From Haloferula helveola (GTDB lineage Bacteria; Verrucomicrobiota; Verrucomicrobiia; Verrucomicrobiales; Akkermansiaceae), in NCBI RefSeq assembly GCF_037076345.1, contig NZ_AP024702.1:186001-250000 (forward strand): a DNA stretch of 64,000 bases. Reading direction: 5' to 3'. Below are positions 11,012-28,942 of the stretch, in pieces. The notes beneath the pieces are model-generated. The model did no database searches, was not told the origin of the DNA, and worked only from the letters and a program-made list of their open reading frames with translations. Made by a program: the position numbers and the translations under genes. The first letter of the stretch is position 1, and every line of letters starts with the position of its first letter.

Positions 11012-11023
11012 ATTGTAGACAAT
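11012..11023. promoter_or_regulatory. Palindromic operator candidate, site 1
   Basis: ATTGTAGACAAT is a perfect palindrome apart from its two central bases, in the 82-bp gap between the divergent GH117-like (start 10990) and sulfatase (start 11073) genes. The same sequence, read on the other strand as ATTGTCTACAAT, recurs at 28758-28769 and with one mismatch at 20325-20336. It fits the t.GTM-KAC.a shape known for FadR-type GntR operators. The regulator is not in the window. Confidence 0.65.
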
Positions 11024-11072
11024 CTATCATCCGCGATCCAGAACAACCTGTCGCGGCTTCGGCCTCCCCGCC

Positions 11073-12839
11073 ATGCGTCCTCTCAACACCCTTTGCGCTC
11101 TCCTCGCGGGCATCTCCTGCCACGTCGCCCCATCCGTGGCGGAAGACCGGCCGAATGTGATCCTGATTGTCACCGATGACCAAGGCTACGGCGATTTGGC
11201 CTGCCATGGGAATCCATCCCTACGCACACCGAATCTCGACCGACTGCGGAGCGAGAGCGTCAGTCTCACCAACTTTCACGTCGACCCCTACTGCACACCG
11301 ACCCGGGCCGCCCTGATGACCGGGCGATACTGCACCAAGGTCGGGGCGTGGACCGTGACGCGCGGGCGCCAACTCCTCGATCCGGGAGAACGGATCATGC
11401 CGGAGTACTTCGCCTCGGCGGGCTACCGCACCGGCATGTTCGGCAAATGGCACCTCGGCGATCCATATCCCTACGCCCCGCGGTTCCGAGGGTTCGAGGA
11501 AACCGTGCGCCACAAAGCCGGCGGCGTCGATGAGCTCGGCAATCCACCGGAGAACTCGTTCATCGACGATTCTTACTTTCGAAATGGCAGGGCGGAGAAA
11601 TTCAAGGGCTACTGCACCGACGTCTTCTTCCGGGAAGCGCTCCGGTTCATCGGCACGGACGACTCCCGTCCGTTCTTCGTCTATCTCGCCACCAATGCGA
11701 TGCACTCGCCATTCGGTGTTCCAGAGCGTTATCGCAGACGGTTCGACGAACAGGGCCATCCGGAGAACCGGGCGAAGTTCTACGGCATGATCGAAAACTT
11801 CGATGACAATCTCGGCCTGCTGATGCGGGAGTTGAAAGAGCGGAAGCTTGAGGACAACACGATCCTGATCTTCATGAGCGACAACGGCACTTCGGCGGGA
11901 AGCGACGGAAAGCCGGGATCGGCAGACGGATTCAACTCGGGGATGCGGGGGAAGAAAGGATCGGTCTACGACGGAGGCCATCGCGTCCCTTGTTTCGTCC
12001 GGTGGCCGGCAGAGATTGCGGGAGGCAGGGAATTCAGCGGACTCACGACCCACCGCGACTGGCTTCCGACCCTGATCGAAGCCTGCAACCTGAACGCAGG
12101 TCCCGTCCGATTCGACGGACGAAGCATGGCAGCACCGCTCCGCGGCGAATCCTCCACTTGGCCCGACCGGATGCTGGTCGTCGAGCACCAAGACGGCATG
12201 CTCGAGTCCGCCCTACCGAACGGCAGCGTTTCTCACCCCTTCGCGGTGCTCAGCGAGCGCTGGCGGTTGGTGAACGGCAAACTCTACGATGCCACGAAGG
12301 ATCCCGGTCAGACAAACGATGTCGCGAAGGCCCATCCCGCCGTCGTGAATGCGCACCTTCAGGCATACCGGGACTACTGGGAAGAGATTGGTTCAGCCAA
12401 AGAGCGCTATTCCCGATTGCAACTGGGACATCCGACGGAGAACCCCACCGAGTTCACCGCGAGGGATTGGTTCCCCACCGAAGGAAAGGTTTTCTGGGCC
12501 ACCAGCCAGACCTCGGACGACGCGCTGTTCCCAAATGGCTACTGGCCCGTCCACGTGCGGGAGGCCGGAACTTACCGATTCGAGCTTCGGAGGTATCCGG
12601 AGGGCGTCACGCAGCCCATCGGAGCGAGTCGGGCACGCATCTCGATCGGAGAGAAGAGCGCTACCGCAGACACTCGTCCGGAGGCGGAGACCGTCGCGTT
12701 TGAGCTCCTCCTGCCCCAAGGTCCAGCGATGCTGCGGACGTGGCTCACCGATGCGGCGAGTGGCCGGGAGCGCGGAGCCTACTTCATCAAGGTTCTCCGG
12801 CAAACCGGCTCCGGTCCGCAGCCGGAACGGTCGGATTGA
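11073..12839 (+). CDS. S1-family sulfatase with extra C-terminal domain
   Basis: The protein is 588 residues, with a signal peptide to about residue 23, NVILIVTDDQGYGD with the metal-binding Asp pair at 35-36, the formylglycine motif CTPTR at about 74-78, GKWHLGD and SDNGT. After the sulfatase core, about residues 465-575 form an additional beta-rich domain (FWATSQTSDDALFPNGYW onward) of unknown role, perhaps substrate positioning. It is the first gene of a plus-strand run of three sulfatases and a GH16 enzyme with short gaps (45, 47 and 36 bp), probably one operon under operator site 1. It likely desulfates red-algal galactan oligosaccharides; regiospecificity is unknown. Confidence 0.93.
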   Translation: MRPLNTLCALLAGISCHVAPSVAEDRPNVILIVTDDQGYGDLACHGNPSLRTPNLDRLRSESVSLTNFHVDPYCTPTRAALMTGRYCTKVGAWTVTRGRQLLDPGERIMPEYFASAGYRTGMFGKWHLGDPYPYAPRFRGFEETVRHKAGGVDELGNPPENSFIDDSYFRNGRAEKFKGYCTDVFFREALRFIGTDDSRPFFVYLATNAMHSPFGVPERYRRRFDEQGHPENRAKFYGMIENFDDNLGLLMRELKERKLEDNTILIFMSDNGTSAGSDGKPGSADGFNSGMRGKKGSVYDGGHRVPCFVRWPAEIAGGREFSGLTTHRDWLPTLIEACNLNAGPVRFDGRSMAAPLRGESSTWPDRMLVVEHQDGMLESALPNGSVSHPFAVLSERWRLVNGKLYDATKDPGQTNDVAKAHPAVVNAHLQAYRDYWEEIGSAKERYSRLQLGHPTENPTEFTARDWFPTEGKVFWATSQTSDDALFPNGYWPVHVREAGTYRFELRRYPEGVTQPIGASRARISIGEKSATADTRPEAETVAFELLLPQGPAMLRTWLTDAASGRERGAYFIKVLRQTGSGPQPERSD

Positions 12840-12884
12840 ATCCTGTCATCAGCTTCACGTCGTCATCCCCCGTCGACATTCCCC

Positions 12885-27896: not shown

Positions 27897-27909
27897 GAAA
27901 GGCGGTTCC

Positions 27910-28650
27910 CTACGGCTTCATCAGCCGCTTGGCCTCGTCGAGATCCGCCAGCTTGGTGTTGTCGATCAGCTCGACGTGGCCGTCCACCATCAGGCAATGG
28001 GTCTTGTCCTTGTAAGTGCCCTGCGGGATCGCGTTGGCATAGGGTCCGAACCAGATCGCGCCCTTGTCGGGATTCTGCTCTGCCACGAGAATGATACTCG
28101 CAGGGCGTTTGATGCGGTGGGCCCGCGTGCCTTTGACTTTCTCTTCAGGAGTCGCCGGCCCGACCCATCCTTCAATGAGATGGTTGTAGGCGTAACCTCC
28201 ACGCAGCCCCTCACCCGCCTTGAAGGTTGCATTCTCGATGCTTACGATCGGAGTGTCGCCACAGAGCTTGTGCTCCGAGAGAGGGTTCTGCAGGAAGGTT
28301 TCCGAAGGATGGACCGACCAGCTGTACTTGTTCCCCTCAAGCTGGCAAAGACCCGCTTCTTCTCCGAGCAGTTCGTAGAGATTGAACTGCGCCCACACCG
28401 GCGATTTGATCCAGCCGGCGTACGGCGGATACGTTCCCCGTATGTTGTGGCCGTTCTGCACGCCGTCCGCCATGATCGATTCGATTCCGAGACTGATCTG
28501 CTTGAGGTTCGAGACGGACTTGGCCGACTTGGCGCCCGAGACGGCTCGCTTGACGCCGAGGAAGACGAGACTTGAGAGAGCGGCGACAATCACGATGACC
28601 ACCAGGAGTTCGATCAGCGTGAAACCGGAGGGTTTCTGGGTTCTGTTCAT
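27910..28650 (-). CDS. Prepilin-type cleavage/methylation protein
   Basis: This 246-residue protein begins at the ATG at 28650 with a class III signal: MNRTQKPSG then FTLIELLVVIVIVAAL, where PilD-type peptidase would cut after Gly9 and methylate Phe10. The rest is a soluble domain ending in a CLMVDGHVELID strand, typical of the large families of pilin-like proteins (DUF1559-related) in Planctomycetes and Verrucomicrobia. The frame extends 52 codons upstream but without pilin character. It heads the operon with GH2, DUF1800, DUF1501 and a pseudopilin-tail protein. Operator site 3 lies 108 bp upstream. Its role in polysaccharide use is unknown. Confidence 0.87.
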   Translation of the reverse strand: MNRTQKPSGFTLIELLVVIVIVAALSSLVFLGVKRAVSGAKSAKSVSNLKQISLGIESIMADGVQNGHNIRGTYPPYAGWIKSPVWAQFNLYELLGEEAGLCQLEGNKYSWSVHPSETFLQNPLSEHKLCGDTPIVSIENATFKAGEGLRGGYAYNHLIEGWVGPATPEEKVKGTRAHRIKRPASIILVAEQNPDKGAIWFGPYANAIPQGTYKDKTHCLMVDGHVELIDNTKLADLDEAKRLMKP

Positions 28651-28942
28651 GGGTTGATGAGGTTTTGGATGGGTTTTGCAGGGCATGTCCCGCTGACCGG
28701 AGGCAGTGCAAGAAATCGTGCCGAAGTTCCGCCACGCTTGCTGCTGCTTTTTGGTATATTGTCTACAATTAGACCCACGCGCCAATCCTGCAAGCTTTTC
28801 TTTCATCTGCTCAGGCAGACGAGGTTCTCTCCGGGAACCCGCGTGCTTCCCTATTCAAGGGCTTCGTCTCCACCACGGTCCCCGATGGACAATTGCGCCC
28901 TCATCGGCAGTAGTCTTCCGGACCAACCAATCGCAGTCTCAT
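28651..28942. promoter_or_regulatory. Divergent promoter region with operator site 3
   Basis: These 292 bases separate the minus-strand prepilin-GH2 operon from the plus-strand propeller gene. The only clear signal is the palindrome at 28758-28769 with a CTTTTTG tract beside it. No RNA gene was recognised. Confidence 0.5.
28758..28769. promoter_or_regulatory. Palindromic operator candidate, site 3
   Basis: ATTGTCTACAAT, identical (on the opposite strand) to site 1, lies between the divergent prepilin-GH2 operon and the propeller gene. CTTTTTG at 28747-28753 precedes it by 4 bases, as at site 2. It probably binds the same dimeric regulator. Confidence 0.65.

Follow-up and report, generated by a model that had tools for sequence, protein, structure and literature searches.

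A TTGT-NN-ACAA palindrome is probably the operator of sister GntR/FCD regulators at an agar/porphyran locus of Haloferula helveola

Haloferula helveola carries genes for the breakdown of red-algal galactans in a stretch of 64,000 nucleotides (contig NZ_AP024702.1, positions 186,001 to 250,000; here called the window), and one 12-bp palindrome, ATTGTCTACAAT, recurs in gaps upstream of these genes. The locus raises the question of which protein, if any, reads this palindrome and which genes it holds together. The original prediction took it for a FadR-type GntR operator marking three promoters, with a regulator encoded elsewhere. Our analysis, based on sequence comparison, gives a probability of roughly 88% that at least one of two adjacent sister GntR/FCD regulators, GntR1 and GntR2, has ATTGTCTACAAT as its operator. 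The evidence consists of the sites, their placement in gaps, the adjacency of the regulator genes, the pairing of palindrome and regulator in other genomes, and the specificity residues of the proteins. Positions refer to the window unless given for the genome (G000); window base 1 is genome base 186001. Loci in other genomes carry L numbers.

Palindromes at the galactan locus

A rescan found ATTGTCTACAAT exactly at 11012-11023 (minus strand; site 1) and 28758-28769 (plus strand; site 3), and a copy with one mismatch, ATTGTCTACATT, at 20325-20336 (plus strand; site 2), as first described. Site 1 lies in an 82-bp divergent gap between a minus-strand gene of glycoside hydrolase (GH) family 117 and a plus-strand sulfatase gene, site 2 upstream of minus-strand GH117-sulfatase genes, and site 3 between minus-strand pseudopilin-GH2 genes and a plus-strand NHL-repeat gene. 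The gene map thus agrees with their earlier assignment to the upstream gaps of GH117, sulfatase, GH2 and propeller genes. All three are real, but three is too low a number, as there are at least five sites, two of them just left of the window. TTTGTCGACAAT (genome 183542-183553) lies 11 bp before the ATG of GntR1, and ATTGTCTACAAA (genome 185736-185747) occupies the gap between GntR2 and a divergent gene for a 752-amino-acid protein, its centre 190.5 bp from the GntR2 start and 129.5 bp before the divergent gene. A weaker partial copy at genome 185773 is found 37 bp from the latter gene.

The palindrome is symmetric and present in both orientations. Its central dinucleotide is CG at the GntR1 site and CT at the other four cluster sites. 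Start codons of the minus-strand genes are spaced 17.5 to 190.5 bp from the site centres, which is compatible with operators situated in core promoters. A CTTTTTG tract noticed earlier beside sites 2 and 3 is indeed present (20315-20321 and 28747-28753, on the same side of each site and 3-4 bases off), though unexplained; the window has four copies, two of them beside sites, and none is found at site 1 or at genome 183542.

Distribution of the motif in the genome

With at most one mismatch, ATTGTCTACAAT has six matches in the 5.68-Mb genome (one for the reversed-pattern control). Four of them (185736, 197012, 206325 and 214758) are all in gaps and inside 29 kb, while 3331901 and 5308326 fall within called genes (all gene calls were made with a home-made codon scorer). 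When six places were drawn at random, 3 of 200,000 simulation runs had four of them within 29 kb; if the two motif-defining copies are taken as given, at least two of the other four fall there with a probability of 1.6e-4. The genome scan proposed earlier, with up to two mismatches, bears out the clustering in gaps at one mismatch or fewer and becomes unspecific at two (55 forward matches against 11 in the control, and 53 reverse matches against 11). The core TTGTNNACAA has 21 genome places, four of which belong to the 31-kb cluster. All four are in gaps, against two of the other 17 (2424772 and 5470675, the latter between dnaN-like and dnaA-like genes as read from sequence); the remaining 15, including 5308327, lie within called genes. 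This difference and the clustering support the operator reading. A position-weight scan of 104 kb gave its five highest scores, 20.2-23.2 bits, to the cluster sites, which are all in gaps; since the matrix was made from those same sites, its informative part is the drop to the next match at 16.5 bits.

These counts bear on the explanation that the repeats have no regulatory meaning and arose by chance or remain from a duplication of upstream DNA. In its favour, the window alone has 19 matches at three mismatches against 12.8 +/- 3.9 expected, a number reached in 5 of 100 shuffles; this counting was set aside as weak and near chance. Sites 2 and 3 also share CTTTTTG beside the palindrome. The genome-wide clustering, the recurrence of the palindrome beside regulator relatives in other genomes (see below) and the flanks of the five sites, which by eye share little else, argue against it. 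We consider this explanation very improbable.

Two sister GntR/FCD regulators beside the window

GntR1 (genome 182901-183530) and GntR2 (genome 184940-185551) are both encoded on the minus strand, flanking a GH117 gene, 0.4-3.1 kb left of window base 1. The regulon predicted earlier is supported, the remoteness of its regulator is not, and the check then suggested, for a GntR gene with its own site, has a positive outcome for both genes, each having a palindrome upstream. The two proteins share 62-63% identity, and a small tree groups them as sisters with support 1.0. Both have the N-terminal GntR winged helix (PF00392) and the C-terminal FCD domain (PF07729) of the FadR subfamily, with both Pfam matches above cut-off, and an AF2 model (predicted local distance difference test score, pLDDT, 87.3) matches the GntR-family structures 7u5q, 4p9f, 9isw and 3fms. 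None of the named NCBIfam GntR equivalogs (PhnR, NanR, LldR, PdhR, GlcC, CsiR) is above its curated cut-off in either protein; the best NCBIfam match is TIGR03338, with 86.3 bits for GntR2 and 103.3 bits for GntR1 against a cut-off of 271.5. The FCD metal site consists of one Asp and three His in TM0439-type structures. It is incomplete here, D135, H139 and H179 being kept in the alignment to TM0439 and the last position being Asn201, both in our two proteins and in four gammaproteobacterial ones, while L121-L123 have His; the full ligand set is not a condition of FCD membership.

The accessible part of PMC4494728 gives for FadR-subfamily operators the consensus NyGTM-N0-1-KACNy, with TKGT/ACMA boxes and a 2-nt spacer in several groups. 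GTC-TAC and GTC-GAC, the two forms found here, both fit it; the TA, TG and CA centres seen in relatives conform to TKGT/ACMA, though not strictly to M/K. The same text links Arg 28, Ser 40 and Gly 59 of the helix-turn-helix (HTH) to G/C at the K position and states that Pro at HTH 40 avoids G/C. In all 15 proteins compared, our two plus 13 related ones, HTH 28 is Gln, Ile or Val, HTH 40 is Pro and HTH 59 is Asn, in line, as far as that text goes, with T rather than G in TKGT, that is, with TTGT. The same source reports that a lone site between divergent genes as a rule acts on both of them, which fits site 1 and the site at genome 185736.

For HTH position 39, a correlation with the central bases is described there; GntR2 has Ala at this position and GntR1 has Gly. 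Together with the CG centre at the GntR1 site and CT at the other four, this raises the idea that the sisters have divided the sites, GntR2 reading the CT sites (polymer attack) and GntR1 its own CG promoter (AHG catabolism; AHG, anhydrogalactose). Such a pair of small linked regulons would be a version of the operator reading, not its denial. We find it somewhat unlikely, as the CG site is a sample of one and Gly 39 in relatives goes with the centres TA, TT, CA and TG, so that the residue at position 39 does not by itself predict the central dinucleotide.

Palindrome and regulator in other genomes

Among the 13 closest GntR relatives examined, every locus has a TTGTNNACAA palindrome, in 11 cases directly upstream of the GntR gene. 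The six closest relatives from named genomes have eight core palindromes, none of them outside the 450 bp that precede the GntR match (2,700 of 58,265 bases); L033 and L036 are near-identical, leaving five independent loci. Among 48 relatives of all depths, 14 have an upstream palindrome, and the seven with the best E-values all belong to these; the loci total 753,775 bases with 20 palindromes, of which 17 fall within the 21,414 bases counted as upstream. In the phylum (387 genomes) four genomes have a match at E <= 1e-25, our own and three others, and in the same order one of 22, G040, has a 34% identical relative; the palindrome is in the gap upstream of GntR in those three and in G040. All five palindromes of L096, L121, L122 and L123 are in that gap. 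A motif-plus-ATG pattern applied to 57 relatives gave scattered matches in 48 of the 57 genomes and was set aside, and a scan of viral_contigs found no relative.

The association extends to the pathway in the gammaproteobacteria. In the Cellvibrionales, the order of L032, four of 293 genomes have a GntR orthologue at E <= 1e-40, L032 included, and the gammaproteobacterial orthologues L032, L144, L145 and L146 are all in AHG loci. L032 has three palindromes in the gap between GntR and a series of TonB-receptor and AHG genes, with exact ATTGTTAACAAT twice in its 4.5-Mb genome, both times in this promoter gap. The palindrome precedes the cycloisomerase operon in L144 and L146, in L146 also GntR itself; in L145 palindromes precede a porphyranase-domain gene, galETK and a pair of KDG kinase and GH117 genes. 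The AHG cycloisomerase is found at E <= 1e-110 in 11 of the 387 phylum genomes, our own included. The ten other AHG loci were covered over 18-20 kb around each cycloisomerase gene, 197,955 bases in all; tblastn detects no GntR1/2 homologue in them (best E 0.30), and ATTGTNNACAAT is absent. For L112, whose gene calls are poor (its cycloisomerase is uncalled), the palindrome scan and tblastn alone count. The ten loci have two core palindromes, one in a gap of L115 (GTTGTGAACAAA) and one in coding DNA of L120, beside an unread base. A LacI-like protein, as read from sequence, is encoded at the operon end instead of GntR in L111 (6632-7768), L113 (12667-13839) and L114 (6248-7387).

The co-occurrence across genomes and the absence of ATTGTNNACAAT from AHG loci without GntR support the operator reading, and they bear on the possibility that the palindromes belong to another factor of LacI, AraC or ECF-sigma type, the GntR genes being merely under its control. 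An ECF sigma/FecR pair (2243-4391) and an AraC/PAS gene nearby provide candidates, and TACAAT resembles to our eye a −10 box. Against it, the palindrome accompanies GntR in differing gene settings and in two phyla, while ATTGTNNACAAT is missing from those ten loci. The palindrome is also symmetric, present in both orientations, and in agreement with the FadR-subfamily consensus (PMC4494728, accessible part). We therefore judge another factor improbable. The operator of FadR type common to the galactan genes, as originally proposed, is supported by the genome scan, gap enrichment, the GntR genes having sites of their own, cross-genome co-occurrence and the published consensus and specificity rules.

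Several observations weigh against assigning the palindrome to GntR. A sigma-70 and terminator scan of the region gave three promoter matches against 3.1 expected, at or below chance, one of the three overlapping site 2. The GntR pair is absent (E <= 1e-25) from 17 genomes of the same genus and 17 of the same family, so that no close-species footprint is possible. No upstream palindrome is found for 34 of the 48 relatives, including L039 (34% identical) and L046 (68% over a short stretch), the latter rejected as a candidate for having no core palindrome. L144 and L145 lack a core palindrome directly upstream of GntR, and 28 more places in the L032 genome match ATTGTTAACAAT at one mismatch. According to the accessible part of PMC4494728, the A/T preference of Asn-59 is statistically non-significant. 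Finally, nine site-bearing relatives (L033-L037, L096, L121-L123) are outside AHG loci in the stretches fetched, so that the site tracks the protein family and not the pathway alone.

Other features of these loci may be mentioned. L032 (9678, 9740) and L096 (10963, 11025), from distantly related genomes, have palindrome pairs exactly 62 bp apart, about six helical turns, which suggests cooperative binding. L121, L122 and L123 have clusters of GntR, a CoA-transferase-like gene (read from sequence) and an aldehyde dehydrogenase gene with ATTGTTGACAAT or ATTGTCAACAAT upstream; the parts read show no AHG genes, and these clusters may represent a sister regulon. In L055, an alphaproteobacterial metagenome-assembled genome, the identical 12-mer ATTGTCTACAAT is found 155 bp before a distant GntR match (25% identical to GntR2), with a sulfatase-like gene (read from sequence) about 3 kb from GntR.

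Genes adjoining the sites

The sites, at least five in number, adjoin seven or eight transcription units, operons being inferred from the gene map. The GntR1 gene is followed by an operon (genome 176288-182879, minus strand) for an aldehyde dehydrogenase, an AHG-acid cycloisomerase (matching 5xd7, E 5.8e-167), an alcohol dehydrogenase, an SDR, a RhaT-like transporter and an epimerase. GH117, AHG dehydrogenase and AHG-acid cycloisomerase, the set that marks a catabolic locus for L-AHG, are thus together, the aldehyde dehydrogenase being assigned to AHG by its context only. GntR2 forms a unit with the GH117 gene between the regulator genes (genome 183617-184867, minus strand; 3p2n, E 2e-207). 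The gene of the 752-amino-acid protein (genome 185871-188129; window 1..2129, plus strand), divergent from GntR2, starts 129 bases left of base 1; its product has no Pfam or NCBIfam match.

Within the window, site 1 is flanked by a GH117-family gene of a second clade (9773..10990, minus strand; 4u6d, E 7.2e-174), 27.5 bp from the site centre, and on the other side by three sulfatase genes (Pfam) and a GH16 gene whose best match is porphyranase B (3juu, E 7.9e-65; 11073..17263, plus strand). Downstream of site 2 are a GH117-family gene (4u6b, E 1e-205) and a sulfatase gene (17349..20211, minus strand). Downstream of site 3 is a presumed operon (20360..28650, minus strand) for a pseudopilin-like protein, a GH2 (best match 5t98), DUF1800 and DUF1501 proteins and a 187-amino-acid protein. 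The NHL-repeat (propeller) gene on the other side of site 3 (29015..30079, plus strand; PF01436), 251.5 bp from the centre, is an uncertain member and would be the eighth unit. The structure and family matches of the GH117s, cycloisomerase, GH16, GH2 and sulfatases indicate a substrate best read as agar/porphyran, L-AHG branch, which narrows the broader "galactan locus" of the original prediction.

The DUF1800 and DUF1501 genes (20927-25327) stand with GH2 and pseudopilin downstream of site 3. Strong homologues of both (1068 and 837 bits) and a TSP3 protein are encoded beside the AHG cycloisomerase in L116 (116-8741). An extracytoplasmic function (ECF) sigma factor and a FecR/LamG-domain protein (2243-4391) within the galactan locus are a possible second control layer.

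Proposed mechanism and known systems

Dimers of the regulators would occupy the TTGT-NN-ACAA palindrome in their own promoters and in those of the L-AHG catabolic operon, of the GH117, sulfatase and porphyranase genes, and of the GH2/DUF1800/DUF1501 operon. Repression is the usual mode of the FadR subfamily, and GntR1 and GntR2 would probably act in this way, with release by an acidic AHG intermediate, possibly 3,6-anhydro-L-galactonate or its keto-deoxy product. If the sisters divide the sites, the structural genes would go with the CT centre and the GntR1 promoter with CG.

The system shares with known FadR-subfamily systems the domain architecture, palindrome form and spacer, and the placing of sites before the regulator gene and between divergent genes. 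In Shewanella (L038), TTGTTGACAA palindromes are upstream of a GntR gene followed by a prpB-like gene (read from sequence); that GntR is 28-29% identical to ours, and the system described here differs in having two sisters and in serving agar/porphyran (AHG) catabolism. DagR, a LacI-family repressor of the agar genes of Streptomyces coelicolor, likewise controls agar breakdown but belongs to another regulator family. The carrageenan regulon of Zobellia galactanivorans (PMC5698469, accessible part) similarly joins GHs, sulfatases and anhydrogalactose catabolism, and its genes are induced by an anhydro sugar. It differs in its regulator, the AraC-family positive regulator CgrA, acting with a D-anhydro sugar, where we find GntR/FCD and an L-sugar; GNTR-like appears in the accessible part of that paper only as a figure-legend label. 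In the carrageenan locus of Pseudoalteromonas carrageenovora a GntR gene, labelled galactonate operon repressor, adjoins anhydrogalactose catabolic genes (PMC6262041, accessible part). The likeness is one of gene neighbourhood, and the pathway differs, being that of D-anhydrogalactose; the accessible part gives no operator.

No GntR regulon for AHG was found in the literature searched, with most subscription papers outside it. The regulator is of a known kind, and the searchable literature appears not yet to have linked its pathway to a regulator of this kind. It is possible, at somewhat less than even odds, that a dedicated GntR/FCD regulator of L-AHG with a ATTGTNNACAAT operator constitutes a conserved agar/porphyran regulon of at least two phyla, and that in H. 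helveola the regulator was duplicated and also took over a surface module (pseudopilin, DUF1800, DUF1501), which the gammaproteobacterial stretches read do not show. If true, this would tie the uncharacterised DUF1800/DUF1501 pair to polysaccharide use. For a bacterium of a group in which the control of red-algal galactan breakdown seems to have received little description, the locus offers a candidate operator and regulator, as well as a handle for searches: scans for the regulator and the palindrome together should reveal further agar/porphyran genes, also uncharacterised ones like the DUF1800/DUF1501 pair and the gene of the 752-amino-acid protein.

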